Below are positions 1,883 through 12,104 of a stretch of DNA of 12,596 bases, piece after piece. Numbering within the stretch: the stretch's first letter is position 1; each line of letters begins with the position of its first letter. Location of the stretch: NCBI GenBank assembly GCA_002746395.1, contig NVXA01000005.1:65495-78090 (forward strand), read 5' to 3'. This DNA comes from Paracoccaceae bacterium. GTDB taxonomy: Bacteria; Pseudomonadota; Alphaproteobacteria; Rhodobacterales; Rhodobacteraceae. A model generated the notes under the pieces. It had not been told where the DNA came from and did not search any database. It saw only the letters and a program-made list of their open reading frames with translations. Both the position numbers and the translations under genes were made by a program.

Positions 1883-2475
1883 TCCTGACAAATTCCTCGT
1901 GTCCTTAAAAAACCCAGTACTTCTAATAACGGTAGGCCCAGAACTGAAAAGTAGTCGCCCTGAACTCGCGTAAACAACTGCGTGCCTTGTGCCTCCAGCT
2001 TATACGCCCCGACGGTTGTAAACAAATCTTCTGCGTGTGTTTGTAGATAGTTTTCCAGAAATTCATCACTAAATGGACGCATCATCAACTGTGCGCGCCC
2101 GATATGGCGCCAAACAGGTGTGCCATCCTCAAAAATAACCGCTGCGGAAAGAAGCTCGTGCGTTTTTCCGCGCAGTGTTTTGAGTTGCGTTCGCGCAGCA
2201 TCAATGGAGTCCGGCTTGTCGAATAGTTTGCCTTCACACACCAGTACTTGATCAGCGCCAAGCACTAGCACTTCCGGGTTTTTGGTGGCCACGCGCCGGG
2301 CTTTCATTTCGGCAAGGGCATCGGCTATGTCCCGCGCAGGTGCGCCCTCTAACATCAAGGCGGATTTGATCGCGTCCTCGTCAACCCGCGCAACGATGGT
2401 TTCCAGTGATACGCCTGCATTTCGCAACATTTCCGCGCGGATTTTGGAACCTGAAGCCAGAATAAGCCGTTTCAT
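1879..2475 (-). CDS. maf: Maf/Ham1-fold nucleoside triphosphate pyrophosphatase, YceF-like
   Basis: A house-cleaning enzyme that hydrolyses non-canonical nucleoside triphosphates to monophosphate and pyrophosphate. The 198 residues show the family pattern: ASGSKIR (7-13) near the N-terminus, acidic pair DE (32-33), GADQV (73-77) with the catalytic aspartate, DKP (86-88), and QGDYFSVLGLPL (172-183) near the C-terminus. The Q after the catalytic D, rather than T, resembles E. coli YceF (m7GTP pyrophosphatase; SDQV) more than YhdE (dTTP/UTP), so m7GTP-type activity is a reasonable inference but not proven. The start is well supported: GGAGG lies 7 bases before ATG, and the ATG overlaps the ppsR stop as ATGA. 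It is translationally coupled to aroE downstream. Confidence 0.93.
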   Translation of the reverse strand: MKRLILASGSKIRAEMLRNAGVSLETIVARVDEDAIKSALMLEGAPARDIADALAEMKARRVATKNPEVLVLGADQVLVCEGKLFDKPDSIDAARTQLKTLRGKTHELLSAAVIFEDGTPVWRHIGRAQLMMRPFSDEFLENYLQTHAEDLFTTVGAYKLEAQGTQLFTRVQGDYFSVLGLPLLEVLGFLRTRGICQE

Positions 2476-3287
2476 GTCTTTGCCTCCGCTAGAATGCCGC
2501 GTATGGCTGCCGCCGTTTCCTCGATCGAGCGACGGGTTACATCAATGACGGGCAATCCGTGCTTCTCGAAAAACAACCGCGCGGAAGCAAGTTCGTTTTG
2601 GATGTCTTTTGTTTCGGCATAAGCAACCAGTTCTGGGTTTCCCAAAGCTTTCAAGCGATGTTGGCGCACTTGTGACAGACGCGTCGGGCTGGCGATCAAC
2701 CCGATTGCGGGAACGCCCGCAGCGAGGGCTTCGATGAAACTTGCAGGAACATCCTGATCCGGTATCAACGGCACATTCGCGGCCCTAATTCCTTGATACG
2801 CCAAATAAATACAGGTTGGCGTTTTAGATGTACGACTAACACCAACAAGAATTACATCTGCTTGGCGCAGGTATTCAGCGCTTAGGCCATCATCATGCGA
2901 GATCGCGTAATCAATCGCGGTGACCCGTTCCAGATAATCTTTATCGACTTTATATTGCTTTCCGGGCTGGCCCGTAGGTTCGAGGCCGTCCAAATCCGCA
3001 AACGCTTGCATAACCGGCCCAAGCAACGAGATCGCTTTGAAGCCCTGAGTATTGCTCGCGGCCTCGACCAATTTGGTGATTTCTGCGCTAACGATTGTGT
3101 AGATAACCAGATCCGCGCTTCCAAAACCCTCGATTAGAGATTTTGCGCGCTGGAGACTTCGCACAAACGGGTACATGGTGATCTTAACAGGCATTTCGAC
3201 AAATTGACTGGCGACAGCCTCGGCAGCGGCGGCGACGGTCTCGCCTGTCGCATCGGATAGTAATACTATTTGGTAGGTTTTCGTCAA
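2472..3287 (-). CDS. ppsR: Pyruvate, water dikinase / PPDK regulatory protein (DUF299; kinase and pyrophosphorylase)
   Basis: Members switch PEP synthetase or pyruvate phosphate dikinase off and on by ADP-dependent threonine phosphorylation and phosphate-dependent dephosphorylation; which of the two is the target here cannot be told from this window. From the chosen start it is 271 residues, the normal family size. The N-terminus MTKTYQIVLLSDATGET is characteristic. ISHDDG (129-134) follows, and the P-loop-like GVSRTSKTP (149-157) is the nucleotide site. VIDVTRRSIEETAAAI closes the protein. I chose TTG at 3287 because GGAG lies 7 bases upstream (3298-3295) and homologues begin exactly there. 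An in-frame ATG at 3386 would add 33 residues running through the DnaA boxes, with no family resemblance. It is first in the minus-strand operon. Confidence 0.93.
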   Translation of the reverse strand: MTKTYQIVLLSDATGETVAAAAEAVASQFVEMPVKITMYPFVRSLQRAKSLIEGFGSADLVIYTIVSAEITKLVEAASNTQGFKAISLLGPVMQAFADLDGLEPTGQPGKQYKVDKDYLERVTAIDYAISHDDGLSAEYLRQADVILVGVSRTSKTPTCIYLAYQGIRAANVPLIPDQDVPASFIEALAAGVPAIGLIASPTRLSQVRQHRLKALGNPELVAYAETKDIQNELASARLFFEKHGLPVIDVTRRSIEETAAAIRGILAEAKT

Positions 3288-3308
3288 TGCAACGCTCCGA
3301 AATCGGTC

Positions 3309-3448
3309 TGTGGATTGTTTAGGGGGTAACTTATGGAAAAGTCCATGTAATCCACAGCGAAATTTTCCCTTGGAAGTTTTACACACCCTTTGATTTTCTA
3401 TTCACATTTTTATACTTGTGGAAAAGATTTTTCCGGCCTTGTGGATGA
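3309..3448. promoter_or_regulatory. DnaA-box cluster, ppsR-proximal (six boxes)
   Basis: Six near-consensus 9-mers lie in 140 bases. Forward orientation: TAATCCACA 3348-3356, TTTTACACA 3377-3385, CTATTCACA 3398-3406. Reverse orientation (read on the complement): CAATCCACA 3309-3317, TTTTCCACA 3417-3425, TCATCCACA 3440-3448. Most differ by one base from TTATNCACA; the 3309 box differs by two. A 6-bp inverted repeat GGAAAA/TTTTCC (3420-3434, 3-base loop) overlaps the 3417 box. Individual boxes are weak, so density is the evidence. Confidence 0.7.
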
Positions 3449-3505
3449 AATCATCTGCTTTTACCTATTATCTTGCAAAATATACGAGATAGGCGCAGAT
3501 GTCGC

Positions 3506-3549
3506 TATGGATAACCCTGTGCAAAACTATCTAAACGCGGTAATCCACA
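3506..3549. promoter_or_regulatory. DnaA-box cluster, hemE-proximal (three boxes)
   Basis: Three boxes fall in 44 bases: TTATCCATA (complement, 3506-3514), TTTTGCACA (complement, 3518-3526) and TAATCCACA (plus, 3541-3549), each one mismatch from TTATNCACA. They border the most AT-rich part of the intergenic region, which runs up to the hemE ribosome binding site. This is the arrangement expected where DnaA loads next to a duplex-unwinding element; function is inferred. Confidence 0.65.
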
Positions 3550-3615
3550 TTATTCAGACTATCTACTATCAACCACAACTTCTCTTAAATACTTATTATT
3601 AAGAGGGAGAACAAA

Positions 3616-4653
3616 ATGACCGGTTCGCCAAAAAAAACAATACTCCGCGCACTTGCTGGAGAAACGCAAAAAACGCCTCCGGTTTGGATGATGCGTCAAG
3701 CTGGGCGATATTTGCCAGAATATCGTGAATTACGTGCTACCGCAGGCGGGTTTTTGGACCTGTGTTATAACCCTGAGTTCGCAACAGAGGTTACTATGCA
3801 ACCAATCCGTCGATATGGATTTGATGCAGCGATCTTGTTTGCAGATATATTGTTGTTACCTCAAGCGTTGGGAATGGATTTATGGTTTGCTGAAGGTGAA
3901 GGCCCACGGCTTAATCCAGTCACCTGTGTGGCTGATTTAAGCAAGCTGAAGGGCAAAGATGATATTCACGACGTTCTAGGGCCTGTTTACGAGACGGTTA
4001 ATCGACTGTCGGGGGAACTTCCCAAAGAAACCGCGTTGATCGGCTTTGCCGGGGCACCTTGGACGGTTGCAACGTACATGGTTGCTGGTCGAGGAACACC
4101 AGATCAAGCACCGGCGCGTGAATGGATGTACCGTGATCCGACAGGGTTTGGGCAGTTGATTGATCTGATAACAGAATCAACGATCGAATATTTGGCCAAA
4201 CAAGTCGAAGCAGGCGCCGAAGTTATCAAATTGTTTGATAGCTGGTCCGGTGCGCTTGGTGGGTCTTGCTTTGAAGAATATGCGCTGAAACCAGCCGTTA
4301 GAATTGCGACTGAATTGAAAGCCAGATTCCCCGGTTTGCCGGTGATTGGTTTCCCACGCGGTGCGGGTGGCGGATATATCAAGTTCGCCGATGCTGGTGT
4401 GTTTGATGGTGTCGCGATTGATACGTCAGTTCCGGCTGATTGGGCGCGTGATGAGCTGCAAAACAAAGTAACCGTGCAAGGCAACCTTGATCCAATGTTG
4501 TTGATCACTGGCGGTGAATCTTTGGAACGTGAAACCAAAAGATTGTTGGATATTCTTGGTCAAGGGCCTTACATATTCAACCTAGGGCATGGAATTACAC
4601 CACAAGGTGATCCCGCAAATGTTGAGAAAATGTTGAGATTTATCAGAGGGTAA
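3616..4653 (+). CDS. hemE: Uroporphyrinogen decarboxylase
   Basis: It converts uroporphyrinogen III to coproporphyrinogen III by four decarboxylations, a shared step of haem and, where present, bacteriochlorophyll synthesis; cytosolic and cofactor-free. The 345 residues match family length. Signature one, [16 protein letters not shown] (22-37), supplies R27 and R31 for substrate carboxylates. FADI (75-78) carries the conserved catalytic aspartate D77. Signature two, [13 protein letters not shown] (143-155), is intact, as are FDSW (207-210) and FNLGHGITP (322-330), whose histidine is conserved. The ATG has GAGGGAG 6 bases upstream. It is the first gene to the right of the putative origin, as in Caulobacter, so its promoter probably overlaps DnaA-binding sequence. 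hemJ follows after 4 bases. Confidence 0.97.
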
Positions 4654-4657
4654 CCCT

Positions 4658-5110
4658 ATGTCCGACGTTCTTACATCAGCTTATCCATGGATATTATCGT
4701 TTCATATTGTTTCGGTAATTTCATGGATGGCGGGCATGTTCTACTTACCTAGGTTATTTGTATACCACGCAGAAACGGCACCTGTCGGTAGCGCGCAGTC
4801 AGAGATTTTCAAGGTTATGGAGCGCAAGCTGATCCGTGCGATCATCAATCCGGCCATGATTGCGACATGGTTTTTTGGACTAGTTCTGGTTTTCACGCCT
4901 AGTATTGTTGACTGGTCCACGATCTGGCCATGGGTCAAAGCGGCGATGGTTATCGGAATGTCGGCTTTTCATGGTTGGCTGTCCACACGTCGTAAAGAGT
5001 TTGAACGCGATGAAAACACCCGCAGCGGACGCACCTATCGCTTGGCAAATGAGGTTCCGACGGTGTTGATGTTGATCATTGTATTTATGGTCATTCCCAA
5101 GCCGTTTTAA
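4658..5110 (+). CDS. hemJ: Protoporphyrinogen IX oxidase HemJ (membrane protein, UPF0093)
   Basis: HemJ oxidises protoporphyrinogen IX to protoporphyrin IX in the inner membrane, the penultimate haem step in many proteobacteria lacking HemG/HemY. The 150-residue protein has four likely membrane helices (about 10-30, 62-80, 93-108, 132-149). The N-terminal signature FHIVSVISWMAGMFYLPRLF spans residues 15-34, followed by VYH, with the family's conserved His16. WVKAAMVIGMSAFHGW (92-107) is the second conserved block, and the charged loop STRRKEFER follows it. It starts 4 bases after hemE; its Shine-Dalgarno AGAGGG lies in the last hemE codons, so co-translation is likely. AGGG and CCCT flank the hemE stop and could form a small hairpin over this site, though a 4-bp stem is weak evidence. 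Confidence 0.92.
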   Translation: MSDVLTSAYPWILSFHIVSVISWMAGMFYLPRLFVYHAETAPVGSAQSEIFKVMERKLIRAIINPAMIATWFFGLVLVFTPSIVDWSTIWPWVKAAMVIGMSAFHGWLSTRRKEFERDENTRSGRTYRLANEVPTVLMLIIVFMVIPKPF

Positions 5111-5117
5111 TCAATAT

Positions 5118-5147
5118 TTGACATTTAGCTGAAAAAACCGATATGTA
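5118..5147 (+). promoter_or_regulatory. Possible sigma-70 promoter upstream of rho
   Basis: A perfect -35 hexamer TTGACA is at 5118-5123. The best -10 candidate, TATGTA at 5142-5147 (18-base spacer), matches consensus at only three positions. It would give a rho leader of about 90 bases, which suits a gene known to be autoregulated in other bacteria. The weak -10 keeps confidence low. Confidence 0.35.
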
Positions 5148-5158
5148 ACGGCAAGCAC

Positions 5159-5173
5159 GGGCGGTTCTCGCCC
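5159..5173 (+). promoter_or_regulatory. Small GC-rich hairpin in the hemJ-rho intergenic region
   Basis: GGGCG (5159-5163) and CGCCC (5169-5173) can pair as a perfect 5-bp stem around a 5-base loop GTTCT. No U-run follows, so it is not a standard intrinsic terminator. It sits in the presumed rho leader and may be a regulatory or stability element, or chance. Confidence 0.3.
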
Positions 5174-5244
5174 ATAATGTGCGCTCCCCAATTGAAAAGC
5201 TTTGCATGGCAGTTGTCGTGTGGGCGTAGAACTATGGTAAATTT

Positions 5245-6516
5245 ATGGAAATCGAAAAACTATCTTTGGCTGAACTGAAGGCTAAAACTCCGGCAGACTT
5301 GTTGGCAATGGCCGAAGAACTGGAAATCGAAAACGCAACCACGATGCGTAAAGGCGATATGATGTTCGCCATCCTCAAGGAAATGGCCGAGGATGGTATC
5401 GAGATTTCCGGTGACGGGGTGGTTGAGGTTCTGAAAGACGGTTTTGGTTTTTTGCGTTCACCTGCTGCCAACTATTTGGCCGGACCGGAAGATATTTATG
5501 TTAGTCCCGAGCAAATCCGTAAGTTCTCGTTGCGTACCGGTGATACGGTTGACGGTGTAATCAAGGCACCAGGCGAAGGGGAAAAGTATTTCGGGTTGGT
5601 GGATGTTGCGTTGATCAACTTTGAGGATCCCGAAAAGTCCAAACACAAGATTAACTTTGACAACCTAACACCGCTTTATCCGGACGAGCGGCTGATTATG
5701 GAAATCGAGGACCCTACGATTAAAGACAAAACTCCACGGATTATTGATCTGGTTGCGCCTATTGGTAAAGGGCAACGCTCATTAGTTGTGGCACCGCCAA
5801 GAACTGGTAAAACCATGATTTTGCAGAATATTGCTAAATCTATCGCGGCAAACCATCCTGAATGTTTCTTGATCGTGCTGTTGGTTGACGAGCGCCCCGA
5901 AGAAGTTACGGATATGCAGCGCAGCGTTAAAGGCGAGGTTGTGGCCTCGACTTTCGACGAGCCTGCCTCGCGCCACGTTGCCGTTGCTGAAATGGTGATC
6001 GAGAAAGCAAAACGGCTTGTCGAACATAAACGTGATGTTGTGATCTTGCTGGATTCCATCACGCGCCTTGGTCGTGCGTTTAACACAGTGGTTCCATCGT
6101 CCGGTAAAGTTTTGACCGGTGGTGTTGATGCCAACGCCTTGCAACGTCCGAAACGCTTCTTTGGTGCGGCGCGTAATATCGAAGAGGGTGGCTCGCTTAC
6201 GATTATCGCGACTGCGCTGATTGATACAGGCAGCCGCATGGACGAGGTTATCTTCGAGGAGTTCAAAGGAACGGGTAACTCCGAGGTTGTTCTGGACCGT
6301 AAGATTGCCGATAAACGGGTATTCCCGGCGATCGACATTCTGAAATCCGGTACGCGGAAAGAAGAGTTATTGGTCGAGAAATCCGAGCTGACCAAGATGT
6401 TCTTGTTGCGCCGTATTTTGAACCCTATGGGTACTACGGATGCTGCGGAATTCTTGCTTGGCAAGATGAAACAGACGAAGACCAACGCCGAGTTCTTCGA
6501 TTCCATGAACAGCTAA
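5245..6516 (+). CDS. rho: Transcription termination factor Rho
   Basis: A hexameric RNA-dependent ATPase/helicase that releases RNA polymerase from untranslated transcripts. Length (423) is normal. The N-terminal helical domain ([20 protein letters not shown], from residue 6) is followed by a cold-shock-like RNA-binding domain with GFGFLRSP (66-73) as the RNP1-like strand. The ATPase core has Walker A APPRTGKT (183-190), VDERPEEV (214-221), Walker [11 protein letters not shown] (265-274), the Q-loop region [18 protein letters not shown] (294-311) and the R-loop region [17 protein letters not shown] (329-345). Everything needed for ATP and RNA binding appears intact. The ATG at 5245 fits homologous N-termini, but no strong Shine-Dalgarno is visible. 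It stands 134 bases after hemJ with a possible promoter of its own; mnmE follows after 57 bases. Confidence 0.97.
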
Positions 6517-6573
6517 CACCAAGTATATTTCGATGAAGATCATATGACTTTATGGTTTTCTGATTAATTACAA

Positions 6574-7884
6574 ATGGATACAGATATGCATGATACAATC
6601 TTTGCATTAGCAACGGCGCGTGGCCGGGCGGGTGTTGCCGTTGTGCGTGTATCTGGGCCGCTAGCGTGGGATGCTATATCTAGGCTGGTTAAGAATTTGC
6701 CTGAACCTAAACGCTCCGCTGTTCGTGTTGTCCATGATTTGGATGGAGAACCGCTTGATGAGGCTCTGATTCTGACCTTTGAGGCTGGGGCTAGTTTTAC
6801 GGGCGAACGGGTGGTCGAAATGCATTTGCATGGCTCCGCCGCTGTTGTGGCCGCTGTTTTGCGGGAGCTATCCAATTGCCATGGGCTCCGTTTGGCGGAG
6901 GCTGGGGAGTTTACGCGCCAAGCGCTCGATAACGGGCGGTTGGATTTGGCGCAGGTTGAAGGTTTGGCAGATTTAATCGACGCTGAAACCGAAGCGCAGC
7001 GGCGGCAAGCGTTGACGGTGATGCGCGGCGCGTTAAGCGTGAAAACCCAAGTTTGGCGTGAAGCATTGATACGCGCAGTGGCATTGTTAGAGGTCACCAT
7101 CGATTTCGCGGATGAAGAAGTGCCGGTTGATGTTTCGCCTGAAGTGCTGGATCTGATTGATAGTGCCCGCAGTGGAATGCAGGTTGAAGCAGATGGCAGC
7201 GGTATTTCTGTGCGGATTCGGGATGGGTTCGAGGTGGCCATAATAGGGCGCCCTAATATCGGAAAATCCACCCTTTTGAATATGTTAGCCAAAAAGGATG
7301 CCGCAATTACTTCGGCAATCGCAGGCACGACCCGAGACGTCATTGAGGTACGGATGGACCTTGGCGGATTACCTATAACATTGCTTGATACTGCTGGATT
7401 ACGGGTTTCGGCGGACGAAATTGAAATCTTGGGAGTTGAGCGCGCGCGGACACGTGCGGAGGCAGCCGACATCCGTGTGTTTTTACTTGAAGCAGGTGAA
7501 ACACACAAAGATTTGGGCGTTGTATTCAAGGCTGGCGATATCATCGCGTATGGTAAGGCTGACGTAACGCAATCAGCTGGGCTTTGTGTTTCGGGGTTAA
7601 CGGGTGTGGGTGTGGAAGACTTGCTCGACCAGCTTTCCCAAGAGCTTGCGAGCAGGGCCGCCGGCGCCAGTTCAGCAGTCAGAGAACGACACCGTATTGC
7701 TTTGGTAGAAGGTATTGCGGCACTGGACAGTGCGGAAATTCATGTAAAAGCGGGAGCAGAATGGTCTGACCTTGCGGCAGAGGACATGCGACAAGCCTTG
7801 CGATCTTTAGATTCTATGATAGGGCGTGTAGATGTGGAAAATGTTCTTGATGTAATTTTTTCCAGCTTCTGTATCGGAAAGTAG
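6574..7884 (+). CDS. mnmE: tRNA uridine-5-carboxymethylaminomethyl(34) synthesis GTPase MnmE
   Basis: MnmE works with MnmG to install the cmnm5/nm5 group on wobble uridine-34 of certain tRNAs. The 436-residue protein has the N-terminal tetrahydrofolate-binding domain (to about 120), helical domain, and inserted G domain: G1 GRPNIGKS (225-232), G2 threonines at GTTRD (251-255), G3 DTAG (272-275). The G4 position reads GKAD (327-330) where most GTPases have NKxD. The C-terminus FCIGK (432-436) keeps the conserved catalytic cysteine. Two ATGs, 6574 and 6586, are possible; the second (MHDTIFAL) aligns better with relatives and neither has a strong Shine-Dalgarno. I give the longer form. The stop TAG lies inside the region AGGAG that probably serves the mnmG start. 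Adjacent mnmG is its obligate partner. Confidence 0.95.
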
Positions 7885-7886
7885 GA

Positions 7887-9758
7887 GTGTTTCACGTGAA
7901 ACATATGTTCGATGTGATTGTAATTGGCGGCGGCCACGCTGGTTCGGAAGCTGCTCAAGCGGCGGCCCGAATGGGTGTGAAGACCGTATTGATCACGCTT
8001 GCGTTCGATAAAATTGGTGAAATGTCCTGTAATCCTGCAATTGGTGGCCTTGGAAAAGGGCACCTTGTTCGGGAAATTGACGCCCTGGATGGCGTTATGG
8101 GCCGCGTGGCCGATCAGGCGGGTATCCAGTTTCGCCTGCTAAACCGTCGAAAGGGGCCAGCGGTTCAGGGGCCGCGCGCCCAAGCTGACCGCCAAATTTA
8201 TAAATCTGTCATGCAGGCCGAATTTAAAAATCGCGCAAATTTGGAGGTTATCGAGGCCGAGGTTTCGGATCTGATCGTTGTTAACGATAGAGTTGAGGGT
8301 GTTGTTCTTAGCGACGGTAGTGAAATTTCTGCGGGGGCAGTTATCCTTACCGCAGGAACCTTTCTGCGTGGCATCATTCATATTGGGGGCCAAACACACG
8401 CTGGCGGCCGAATGGGTGATAGTTCATCGGTAGCTTTGGCCGAACGGATAGATGCGCTGGGCTTGCCATTGGGTCGGTTGAAAACTGGCACACCGCCTAG
8501 ACTGGATGGACGAACCATCAACTGGGATGGGTTAGAAATGCAAAAAGGTGATGACTCGCCCACGATGTTTTCATTTATATCTGATGCACCGACAGCGCGG
8601 CAAGTATCTTGTGGAATTACGCATACTAATAACCAAACACATGATATTATTATAGAAAATATCAATAAGTCAGCGATGTATAGCGGTAAAATTGAAGGTG
8701 TAGGTCCGAGGTATTGCCCCTCAATAGAAGATAAAGTCGTTCGATTCGCTGATAAAAGTAGCCATCAGATTTTTTTGGAACCGGAAAGCCTCAATGATTT
8801 TGTAGTATACCCGAATGGTATTTCAACGTCACTACCAGTGGACGTTCAAGAAGCGTATGTTGCGTCGATCAAGGGTTTGGAGAATGCCAGGATTTTGCAA
8901 CCGGGATATGCGATCGAGTATGATTACATCGACCCTAGAGCGCTACGCTCTACGCTTGAGGTTAAGGCAGCCCCTGGGCTTTACTTCGCCGGTCAGGTGA
9001 ATGGTACCACTGGCTACGAAGAGGCAGCAGCGCAAGGGCTTGTTGCGGGGCTGAACGCTGCATTGGCTGTTAAGGGGTGTGAATCCGTGTTGTTCGACCG
9101 CGCGGATGGGTATATTGGCGTGATGATCGATGATTTGGTGACGCGCGGCGTTTCCGAGCCATACCGAATGTTCACGTCTAGAGCTGAGTATCGGCTTTCC
9201 TTGCGGGCAGATAACGCTGACCAGCGGTTGACACCAATTGGAATATCGCTGGGCTGTGTTTCAGACCAAAGAAAAAAGGCGTTTGATGATCGCATGGAGT
9301 CTTTGAGGAAAACTAAAGCAAGCTGCCAAAAGCTGTCAGTTTCTCCAAGCGAAGCTGGGGTTCATGGTATTAAGGTCAATCAGGACGGCGTTCGGCGTAC
9401 CGCGCTTGATCTTTTGTCTTACCCAGACGTGAGCATATCCAAACTGTCAGATATCTGGCCGGAGTTGTCGGATGTCTCTGCCAAAATTGCGCAACAGGTT
9501 GAGAACGACGCGCGCTATGCGCATTATATTGCACGTCAGAAAAGAGATGTCGAAGCAATGCGGCGGGATGAGGCGTTGCGGATACCTACGGACACGAATT
9601 ATGAAACCATCGTGGGGCTATCCAATGAGTTGCGCAGCAAGCTTACGAACATCCAACCAGCGACGCTGGGGCAGGCTGGGCGGATTGACGGGATGACACC
9701 AGCGGGATTGACTTTGATACTCGCCAATATACGTAAGCCAAAGAAGCGATCAGCATGA
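7887..9758 (+). CDS. mnmG: tRNA uridine-5-carboxymethylaminomethyl(34) synthesis enzyme MnmG (FAD-dependent)
   Basis: It is the flavoprotein partner of MnmE in tRNA wobble-uridine modification, using FAD, NADH and methylene-tetrahydrofolate-derived carbon. The 623 residues have the dinucleotide-binding GGGHAG (14-19), the signature CNPAIGG with Cys48, a second conserved cysteine in [11 protein letters not shown] (Cys277), [18 protein letters not shown] (367-384), and [20 protein letters not shown] (426-445). The C-terminal helical domain that binds MnmE is complete. Three in-frame starts exist: GTG 7887, GTG 7896 and ATG 7905. AGGAG (7883-7887) is best spaced for 7896. I give 7887 because homologues in this order commonly begin MFHVK from the same parS-overlapping position, but the point is open. 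The stop overlaps rsmG as ATGA. Codons around 8580-8840 are more A/T-rich than the rest of the gene. Confidence 0.96.
7888..7903. other. parS: parS centromere site 1 (perfect), at the mnmG start
   Basis: TGTTTCACGTGAAACA is an exact, fully palindromic match to the conserved bacterial parS consensus bound by ParB. It starts one base after the G of the most upstream mnmG start codon and encodes part of its N-terminus (FHVK). It lies about 4.3 kb from the putative origin and 2.5 kb from parA, whose product acts with ParB on it. Confidence 0.95.
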
Positions 9759-10390
9759 GTCAGTTAACGGCATCACAGGCCAACTTTGCCGAGATATTTG
9801 ATGTTTCACGTGAAACAATGAGCCGGCTGGAAGCGTATGCGGCACTCTTGATCAAATGGAACCCCAAGATTAATTTGGTGGCAAAATCCACAATTCGCGA
9901 TATTTGGCACCGGCATATGGCGGATTCCGCGCAGCTTTGGCCGTTGGCGCCGGAGGGGGTCAAGACTTGGATGGATATCGGATCCGGTGCTGGATTTCCG
10001 GGGTTGGTGATTGGGGCAATTGCCGTTGAAAAAGCACCTGACTTGAGAGTTACACTCGTCGAAAGCGATAGAAGGAAATCCGTATTTCTTCAATCTGCCG
10101 CTAGAGAAATGGGGATATCGGTAGACGTGATTACCCAAAGAATAGAGAAACTTGAACCGAAAGGCGCAGATGTACTGTCAGCACGCGCACTTTCTTCTCT
10201 TACGCAACTACTTGAATTTGCAGAACAACATAGAAATCCAGCTGGGATTTGTTTATTTCCTAAGGGCACACGAGTCGATTCAGAATTGACCGAAGCGTCA
10301 TCTTGTTGGCATATGGCATGCGAGACATTTTCTAGTATGACTGATCCAGACGCAGTTATACTCCGTATCGGAGAATTCAAACGTGTCTAA
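9755..10390 (+). CDS. rsmG: 16S rRNA (guanine(527)-N7)-methyltransferase RsmG
   Basis: It methylates N7 of G527 in the 530 loop of 16S rRNA using S-adenosylmethionine; loss in other bacteria gives low-level streptomycin resistance. The 211 residues include the substrate-binding helix [10 protein letters not shown] (52-61), the SAM motif GSGAGFPG (76-83), [13 protein letters not shown] (101-113) with the ribose-binding acidic residue, SARAL (142-146) and FPKG (168-171). All key family blocks are present. Its ATG overlaps the mnmG stop as ATGA. Codons 17-21 (VSRET) are the translation of the second parS site, a familiar feature of RsmG proteins in bacteria that carry parS here. The 3' end overlaps the parA GTG start by 8 bases, so mnmG, rsmG, parA and parB probably form one transcript. 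Confidence 0.95.
9802..9817. other. parS: parS centromere site 2 (perfect), within rsmG
   Basis: A second exact TGTTTCACGTGAAACA lies 16 codons into rsmG, about 1.9 kb after site 1 and 0.6 kb upstream of parA. Here it is read in a different frame, giving the residues VSRET. Two perfect 16-mers this close, flanking mnmG and next to parAB, make a functional ParB-loading locus very likely. Confidence 0.95.
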
Positions 10391-11201
10391 AAGCACTATT
10401 ACACCCGTTAAGAACCCAACCGTGATTGCTGTGGCGAATCAAAAAGGCGGGGTTGGAAAAACCACGACGGCGATAAATTTGGGCACTGCTTTGGCGGCTG
10501 TCGGGCGAAAAGTGTTGTTGATCGATCTGGATTCGCAAGGGAACGCATCGACCGGGCTGGGAATTACACCGGATAAACGCAAGTTGACGACTTACGATTT
10601 ACTGGAGGGCGAGACCGCACTTTCGGCAATCGCGCAGGAAACCATGATCCCGAACTTCTTCATCGCGCCTTCGACAAACGACTTGAGTTCTGCGGATGTG
10701 GATATGGTGAACGATCCAAACCGTGTGTTGCGGATGAAAAAGGCGTTGACGTCGGATGAGGCGCTGGCCTGCAATTTTGATTACATATTGATCGACTGTC
10801 CACCATCGCTGAACTTGTTAACCGTAAATGCGATGGTTGCGGCGGATTCGGTCCTTGTTCCGTTGCAGTGCGAATTTTTTGCGCTTGAAGGTCTGTCGCA
10901 GCTGATGCTGACGATCCGCGAAGTCAAGCAATCGCTGAATTCTAAGTTAAAGATTCAGGGGATCGTGTTGACGATGTATGATCGCCGAAATAACCTGTCC
11001 AAGCAGGTTGAGGATGATGTGCGTGAAAACCTCGGGGATTTGGTTTACGAAACTATTATCCCCCGAAATATCCGGCTTAGCGAAGCGCCCTCGCACTCGG
11101 TTCCAGCGTTGATTTACGATCACAGAAGTTCCGGCAGTATTGCATATCAAAAACTAGCTGCCGAGTTACTTCGGCGTATGAATGATAACGTAACAGATTG
11201 A
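10383..11201 (+). CDS. parA: Chromosome partitioning ATPase ParA (Soj family)
   Basis: A Walker-type ATPase that binds DNA non-specifically as an ATP dimer and moves the ParB-parS complex so that origins separate. The 272 residues have the deviant Walker A KGGVGKTT (21-28) with its signature lysine, A' LIDLDSQGN (46-54), and Walker B ILIDCPPS (135-142). The C-terminal block PRNIRLSEAPSH (227-238) belongs to the DNA-contacting surface; it continues SVP where many relatives have a glycine after SH. There is no N-terminal helix-turn-helix extension, so this is the chromosomal Soj-like rather than plasmid P1-like type. GTG is the start, with GGAG 9 bases upstream inside rsmG; the ORF overlaps the rsmG stop by 8 bases. 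parB follows after 12 bases. Confidence 0.96.
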   Translation: MSKSTITPVKNPTVIAVANQKGGVGKTTTAINLGTALAAVGRKVLLIDLDSQGNASTGLGITPDKRKLTTYDLLEGETALSAIAQETMIPNFFIAPSTNDLSSADVDMVNDPNRVLRMKKALTSDEALACNFDYILIDCPPSLNLLTVNAMVAADSVLVPLQCEFFALEGLSQLMLTIREVKQSLNSKLKIQGIVLTMYDRRNNLSKQVEDDVRENLGDLVYETIIPRNIRLSEAPSHSVPALIYDHRSSGSIAYQKLAAELLRRMNDNVTD

Positions 11202-11213
11202 AAATATTGAAAA

Positions 11214-12104
11214 ATGGCAAAGAAAACTGAACGCAAAAGCCTAGGGCGCGGTCTTTCCGCATTGTTGGCAGATGTCAATCTTGATGAGGGGAGCAACACC
11301 CACGCAGCGGCTGCCATGCGATCGAGTGATACTGATGTGCCAATCGAAAAGGTTTTTGCGAATCCGGATCAGCCACGCCGGACATTTGTTGAAAAGGATC
11401 TCGAAGACCTGACTGCGTCCATTGCCGAAAAAGGTGTGATTCAGCCGTTAATCGTTAGGCCTGATCCAAATAGTAAAGATGGCTATCAAATCGTTGCTGG
11501 TGAACGTCGTTGGCGCGCTGCACAGCGGGCCAAGCTGCATAGTATCCCGGTCCTAATCCGCGAGCTGACCGACACAGAGGTGTTGGAGTTGGCCATCATC
11601 GAAAACATCCAACGCGCCGATTTGAACGCGGTGGAAGAGGCGATGGGATATCGCCAACTAATGGATAAATTTGGCCACACGCAAGAAAAAATGGCCGCAG
11701 CCTTAGGTAAAAGCCGCAGTCACATCGCTAACCTTCTCCGGCTGTTAAATCTGCCATCAGAAGTGCAAGAGTATCTTCAAAGCGGCCAAATTTCCGCAGG
11801 CCACGCACGAGCGTTGGTGCCTGCTGAAGATCCAGTCGCGTTGGCCCGTGTGATAATTTCAAAAGGCCTGTCCGTTCGACAAGCCGAAGCATTGGCCAAG
11901 GCGAAAAAGCCGGGTGCAGTGCAAAAACGGCAGTTAAAACCAACCAAAGATGCGGATACGCGGGCGATAGAAGATGATTTGACAGCGCATCTCGGCGTTA
12001 AGGTTAGTATTGATCACAAAGCAGGCGGTCAAAGTGGAGAGTTGCGGATTAAATACGCCGATCTGGAACAGTTAGATGGCCTTTGCCAACTTCTGTCGCA
12101 GTGA
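11214..12104 (+). CDS. parB: Chromosome partitioning protein ParB (Spo0J family)
   Basis: ParB loads at parS as a CTP-dependent clamp, spreads on neighbouring DNA and stimulates ParA. The 296 residues show the N-terminal ParA-interacting stretch GRGLSALLAD (11-20), the segment ANPDQPRRTF (49-58), GERRWRAAQRA (96-106; the arginine-rich CTP-binding motif), ENIQRADLN (130-138), and a helix-turn-helix around EKMAAALGKSRSHIANLLRL (158-177) that reads parS. A basic linker (about 224-245) leads to the C-terminal dimerisation domain. All functional regions are present and its two targets lie just upstream, in the mnmG and rsmG genes. The start ATG follows parA by 12 bases without a strong Shine-Dalgarno, suggesting coupling. 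The stop abuts the convergent DUF454 gene with no spacer. Confidence 0.96.
   Translation: MAKKTERKSLGRGLSALLADVNLDEGSNTHAAAAMRSSDTDVPIEKVFANPDQPRRTFVEKDLEDLTASIAEKGVIQPLIVRPDPNSKDGYQIVAGERRWRAAQRAKLHSIPVLIRELTDTEVLELAIIENIQRADLNAVEEAMGYRQLMDKFGHTQEKMAAALGKSRSHIANLLRLLNLPSEVQEYLQSGQISAGHARALVPAEDPVALARVIISKGLSVRQAEALAKAKKPGAVQKRQLKPTKDADTRAIEDDLTAHLGVKVSIDHKAGGQSGELRIKYADLEQLDGLCQLLSQ

Follow-up and report, generated by a model that had tools for sequence, protein, structure and literature searches.

The 328-bp intergenic region between ppsR and hemE, which covers positions 3288-3615 of the window, is very probably the chromosomal replication origin (oriC) of this genome. This reading is based on the two flanking genes, a dense cluster of DnaA boxes, the nearby parAB genes with parS-like sites, conservation among relatives, and the minimum of the sampled GC skew in one relative (G091). 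The window is the whole stretch of DNA analysed, 12,596 nucleotides, and corresponds to positions 65495-78090 of contig C4 in a 2.61-Mb draft genome (G000) of 23 contigs. Among the papers that a literature search listed, none dealt with the replication origin of this genus, and no replication experiment was found.

Genes around the intergenic region

The main features of the window outside the DnaA boxes are the following.

2475..3287, minus strand: ppsR (COG1806), left flank; Pfam Kinase-PPPase, 2.7e-79
3288..3615, unstranded: intergenic region (the gap), putative chromosomal oriC, 328 bp
3616..4653, plus strand: hemE, right flank; Pfam URO-D, 1.4e-116
7888..7903, unstranded: perfect parS-like palindrome TGTTTCACGTGAAACA, from a motif search
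9802..9817, unstranded: second perfect parS-like palindrome, from a motif search
10383..12104, plus strand: parA and parB, from Pfam

As read from the open reading frames, the genes of the minus strand have the order dnaQ-coaE-aroE-maf-ppsR, those of the plus strand after the gap have the order hemE-hemJ-rho-mnmE-mnmG-rsmG-parA-parB, and both sets are transcribed away from the gap. Maf, Kinase-PPPase (COG1806), HemE, ParA and ParB are confirmed by Pfam, and the names dnaQ, coaE, aroE, hemJ, rho, mnmE, mnmG and rsmG are presumptive, assigned by eye. The hemE gene is 90-95% identical to that of the window in eight named loci, seven of them from MAGs. The start of ppsR was assigned to TTG 3287 by eye. 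An automatic list of reading frames begins the gene at GTG 3386, which would place the first boxes within ppsR. The parAB genes and the two parS-like sites are found 4-9 kb from the gap, the parS-like sites themselves at 4-6 kb, with TGTTTCACGTGAAACA taken as the parS palindrome.

The gap has a GC content of 37.5%, against 49.8% for the window as a whole, and contains no ambiguous base. It had also been proposed to serve as the promoter region of both hemE and ppsR, a double role that is unproven, as a sigma-70-like scan gives 0 matches where 1.1 are expected by chance.

DnaA boxes in the intergenic region

Nine 9-mers in 3288-3615 have exactly one mismatch to the DnaA box consensus TTATNCACA and six more have two, which makes 15 at two mismatches or fewer, and perfect TTATNCACA boxes number 0 in the same positions. 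The nine one-mismatch boxes (3348+, 3377+, 3398+, 3417-, 3440-, 3506-, 3518-, 3541+ and 3550+) lie on both strands within 211 bp (3348-3558). The cluster, its mixed orientations and its lack of a perfect consensus box are therefore as the original prediction had described them. The box slots and the other elements of the gap are listed below, with their state in the 11 aligned relatives.

3309..3317, minus strand: slot 1, CAATCCACA, two mismatches; TTATCCACA in 5/11 relatives
3348..3356, plus strand: slot 2, TAATCCACA
3377..3385, plus strand: slot 3, TTTTACACA
3388..3417, unstranded: second AT-rich stretch, 80% AT
3398..3406, plus strand: slot 4, CTATTCACA; TTATTCACA in 3/11 relatives
3417..3425, minus strand: slot 5, TTTTCCACA
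3440..3448, minus strand: slot 6, TCATCCACA; perfect TTATCCACA in 8/11 relatives
3506..3514, minus strand: core box TTATCCATA; same imperfect form in 8/11 relatives, 93% column identity
3513..3546, plus strand: core signature AACNCTGTG-N17-GGTAATCC
3518..3526, minus strand: core box TTTTGCACA; 98% column identity
3541..3549, plus strand: core box TAATCCACA; same in 7/11 relatives, 93% column identity
3550..3558, plus strand: core box TTATTCAGA, abutting the box at 3541..3549
3575..3604, unstranded: AT-rich stretch, candidate unwinding element, 80% AT
3582-3588 and 3599-3605: inverted repeat CTCTTAA / TTAAGAG, just ahead of the hemE ribosome-binding site

This cluster, a feature expected of an oriC, is well beyond chance. 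In 1000 dinucleotide shuffles of the gap, boxes with at most one mismatch average 0.43 with a maximum of 4, and boxes with at most two average 4.6 with a maximum of 12, so the observed 9 and 15 are each reached in 0/1000 shuffles. The background scan covers 384 kb of the 2.61 Mb, made up of contig C4 (208,250 bp) and 176 kb from nine other stretches of this genome. The runner-up 328-bp stretches of C4 hold 3 boxes against 9 in the gap, and the best stretch among the nine others holds 2, so that equal box density elsewhere, which would have spoken against an origin, is not what is seen. Counted over the whole genome, the pattern with at most one mismatch occurs 1545 times (reversed control, 1194), about 0.19 per 328 bp, and the enrichment in the gap that the original prediction expected from such a count is borne out. 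The stricter pattern TNATCCACA has 101 occurrences, against 37 for its reversed control, and among the 100 of these 101 that were listed, three within 350 bp are found only in the gap.

In domain IV, the DnaA protein of this genome matches chain 1J1V of E. coli DnaA and has retained the SVARPRQ and GGRDHTTV motifs, so the usual E. coli box consensus should apply. With a DNA-binding domain of this type, the boxes in the gap should really be weak ones.

Architecture of the hemE-proximal core

The four one-mismatch boxes nearest hemE form a core of two tandem weak-box pairs placed back to back (3506-/3518- and 3541+/3550+), which are separated by a 14-nt spacer. The plus-strand pair is oriented toward the AT-rich stretch at 3575-3604, which ranks among the window's least stable parts without being the least stable of all; an AT-rich element beside the boxes is likewise a feature expected of an oriC. 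The inverted repeat is present as CTCTTA..TAAGAG in 12/12 aligned sequences, and taken alone it is not significant, as arms of at least 7 appear in 142/1000 mononucleotide shuffles.

Sites for other regulators are scarce in the gap. The strict CtrA motif TTAA-N7-TTAA gives 0 matches and the loose form TTWW-N7-TTWW gives one, at 3585; the IHF motif WATCAN5WTR gives 0, and GANTC and GATC give no sites, although the absence of GANTC says little because the gap is short. A terminator-like hairpin at 3441-3458, one found against 0.5 expected, overlaps a box.

Conservation in the genus and family

The window was aligned with 11 relatives of the same genus, which their positions identify as G001-G006 and G008-G012. 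Identity to the window is 84% in the box slots and 70% in the rest of the gap, and of 327 rotated versions of the slot mask, 3 score equally well. Perfect boxes vary across the relatives at slots 1, 4 and 6. The four core slots contain a single perfect box in the 11 aligned relatives, TTATACACA at 3550-3558 in locus L020. The slot at 3541-3549 reads TAATCCCC(A/G) in the 4/11 aligned relatives that do not share the form of the window, and also in G091, G097 and G179.

An origin made only of imperfect boxes, as originally predicted, is what this genome has, and it is not what the lineage has: in 11 of the 13 same-genus genomes, a count that takes in the window's own genome, the homologous region (380 bp each) contains 1-3 perfect boxes, the two exceptions without any being the window's genome and G007. 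The stretch of G009 ends inside hemE and was counted, since the same locus (L020) also shows perfect boxes in a separate scan. Outside the genus, the gap is also without a perfect box in G091 and G097, which belong to two other genera, and has one perfect box in G179, from a third. A weak-box-only origin is thus true for this genome and for three others read, and is not general in the genus.

Of the 296 family genera searched, 4 contain the core signature, in one copy each, and directly before hemE in 4/4; among 389 genomes of the class it is found in the window's own genome only. The core pattern was built after the window, its genus, G007, G097 and G179 had been viewed, so three of the four family matches had been used to build it and G091 alone is new. 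The test of its rarity therefore lies in the 292 genera without a match and in the reversed control, which is empty.

A survey of 29 hemE loci of the family, which scored highest among 197 matching genomes and do not include G097, gives boxes and core before hemE in 2/29. The box cluster before hemE is absent in the other 27/29, one of which has just 178 bp readable. The ppsR gene was detected in 7/120 genomes, own genome included, and undetected in 113/120; the gene to the left of the gap in G091 and G179 resembles maf by eye, rather than ppsR. The position of the origin beside hemE seems to be kept in few lineages of the family only, and may be an old trait retained in these few Rhodobacteraceae.

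GC skew and the dnaA locus

A minimum of the cumulative GC skew at the gap had been predicted, and the results are divided. On contig C4 there is no clean minimum: the skew has a local minimum near 55 kb, with the gap at 69 kb, and falls again after 130 kb to reach its lowest point of the contig at 205.6 kb. The negative skew between ~130 and 175 kb, ~60 kb from the origin, may reflect an inversion, a local bias or a misassembly.

In G091, a single contig of 3.2 Mb, the predicted minimum does appear. Sampled at 20 places of 20 kb each, the cumulative skew reaches its lowest value between the samples at 750-770 and 776-796 kb, the gap being at 787 kb, and highest after the sample at 2.40-2.42 Mb, about half a chromosome from the minimum. 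The KOPS-like word GGGNAGGG reverses at about the same places as the skew. Two parS-like sites are present at 781-783 kb. The dnaA gene is only 26 kb from hemE in this genome, so its skew cannot separate the gap from dnaA; the box counts, 3 per 328 bp in the stretch of the gap against 2 or fewer in the 19 other samples, favour the gap over dnaA only slightly.

In two other relatives the skew minimum lies ~0.1-0.4 Mb from the gap. The skew of G007 within 90-345 kb is lowest at 180 kb, with the gap at 297 kb, which is the densest box cluster of these 255 continuous kb (6 boxes; the next has 3). In G097 the sampled minimum follows the sample at 2.38-2.40 Mb and the gap is at 2.738 Mb. If the terminus of G097 is placed at ~0.66 Mb, the turning point of both the skew and the KOPS-like words, a hand calculation divides the chromosome arms ~48:52 from the gap and 36:64 from dnaA.

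A position of oriC beside dnaA was also considered and is thought unlikely, as no cluster is found there in the own genome, which has 2 boxes per 328 bp in its dnaA region, or in G097, which has a single near-box in 20 kb around dnaA. The own genome has two perfect boxes just ahead of dnaA, at G000:C12:28837 and 29185 (L126:8837 and 9185), which lie near a gene read as rpsT and are nearer the consensus than any box of the origin. The dnaN-dnaA stretch, L126 (G000:C12:20001-36276), has many ambiguous bases at ~4400-8600, so the draft genome possibly holds mixed strains.

Comparison with known origins

hemE and COG1806 flank the proven oriC of Caulobacter and the predicted oriC of Rickettsia (PMC1914354), and the position beside hemE that the original prediction had likened to these two is confirmed by the same pair of flanks. 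The Caulobacter oriC has weak boxes only, the G-box TGATCCACA and the W-box TCCCCA (PMC4285127, PMC4468827). The gap is a further member of the hemE-COG1806 kind of origin, and because Caulobacter already has an origin of weak G- and W-boxes only, an origin built in this way is not new.

The likeness to the Caulobacter origin thus includes the same two flanking genes and weak boxes only, and extends to parS (within 8 kb in Caulobacter, 4-6 kb in the window) and to stronger boxes elsewhere in the genome, of which the window's genome has 65 perfect ones (reversed control, 35). The TAATCCCC(A/G) form of the slot at 3541-3549 contains, or almost contains, the W-box (PMC4285127). In contrast to Caulobacter, the gap is without a CtrA or IHF site, carries a larger number of near-consensus boxes, whose sequences also differ (TAATCCACA, TTTTNCACA and TTATCCATA), and has close relatives most of which carry perfect boxes.

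The origins of Rickettsia and Sphingomonadaceae (PMC1914354, PMC4741004) have the hemE flank and the presence of boxes in common with the window. In Rhodobacteraceae, nearness to parAB serves to choose oriC (PMC6699656), and the window too has parAB close by, whereas the loci without a box cluster before hemE and the genomes without detected ppsR, counted above, set the window apart from most of the family. The high-affinity boxes of H. pylori (TCATTCACA) and M. tuberculosis (TTGTCCACA) are none of them perfect by the E. coli consensus (table in PMC4285127); in these species the consensus is shifted, while the relatives of the window still use TTATCCACA.

The basal unwinding system follows the rule of a box and then at least 3 NAN trios within 16 nt, which are GAT-rich (PMC8287927). 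The window is similar to that of Bacillus in its tandem pair (3541 and 3550) followed by CTACTA, which on the same strand is the complement of two 3'-GAT-5' trios, and differs from it in that three consecutive trios are absent after this pair, with only the two GAT read there by eye. A loose version of the trio rule fits only after other boxes, those at 3377, 3379, 3398 and 3569, with 0-1 GAT each, in a raw scan without shuffle control.

Proposed mechanism and alternative explanations

The full explanation, in which the gap is oriC, DnaA acts cooperatively on weak boxes, an AT-rich stretch opens and ParAB carries out segregation, is held with high confidence. DnaA, with its usual E. coli-type DNA-binding domain, would most likely load onto the nine or ten weak boxes in a cooperative manner, as the original prediction reasonably supposed, and would fill them only jointly. 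A filament starting from the plus-strand pair would then probably open the AT-rich stretch at 3575-3604 just before hemE, forks would depart from the gap in both directions, and the copied origins would be separated by ParAB acting at parS 4-6 kb away.

The skew minima of G007 and G097 that miss the gap, the skew of G091 that is unable to tell it from dnaA, and the two perfect boxes upstream of the own dnaA (C12:28837 and 29185) would also suit a different arrangement, in which the gap serves hemE and ppsR as a promoter region that titrates DnaA or is regulated by it, and the true origin is elsewhere, for example beside dnaA. The low box counts around dnaA in the own genome and in G097 argue against this, as do the more even arms of G097 when measured from the gap, and the flanks, the parS-like sites and conservation favour the gap; a promoter or titration region in place of an origin is considered very improbable. 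An error in the consensus of the draft genome is hardly credible as the cause of the missing perfect box. The ambiguous bases of the dnaN-dnaA stretch, with the mixed strains they may indicate, would allow such an error, but the gap itself is free of them and the separate assemblies of G007, G091 and G097 likewise lack perfect boxes.

With the gap taken as oriC, the chances are about even that the absence of perfect boxes is meaningless and comes from one or two base changes tolerated by the system. Slot 6, perfect in most of the aligned relatives, is one base from perfect in the window, and the gain and loss of perfect boxes at slots 1, 4 and 6 points the same way. Against it stand the four separate genomes without perfect boxes (G000, G007, G091 and G097), the single perfect box among the four core slots of the aligned relatives, and Caulobacter, where box changes toward higher affinity can reduce replication (PMC4468827), so that weak boxes may reflect a setting rather than decay. 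More tentatively, and with somewhat less than an even chance, the hemE-proximal core could be a selected loading module of weak boxes only, in which the two outward-facing pairs at fixed spacing would set the firing threshold and the upstream strong boxes would be optional. Most members of the genus, and G179, carry such strong upstream boxes; the window's genome, G007, G091 and G097 do not.

With a single species it is difficult to test whether weak origin boxes are deliberately tuned, as has been claimed for Caulobacter. Within this one genus, homologous origins differ naturally in their number of perfect boxes (0, 1, 2 or 3) while the weak core stays nearly constant, so that box strength can be compared against a largely unchanged background. 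As a marker, the core motif also points out a few Rhodobacteraceae lineages that retain the hemE origin position.

Other DnaA boxes in the genome

The dnaQ gene contains TCATCCACA and TAATCCACA at window positions 185 and 316 (C4:65679 and 65810), in a near-box group which, with 3 per 328 bp, is tied for the second densest on C4. Two perfect TTATCCACA boxes, facing each other 167 bp apart, are found at G000:C21:196301-196476, and this pair is a possible candidate for a DnaA-controlled site.
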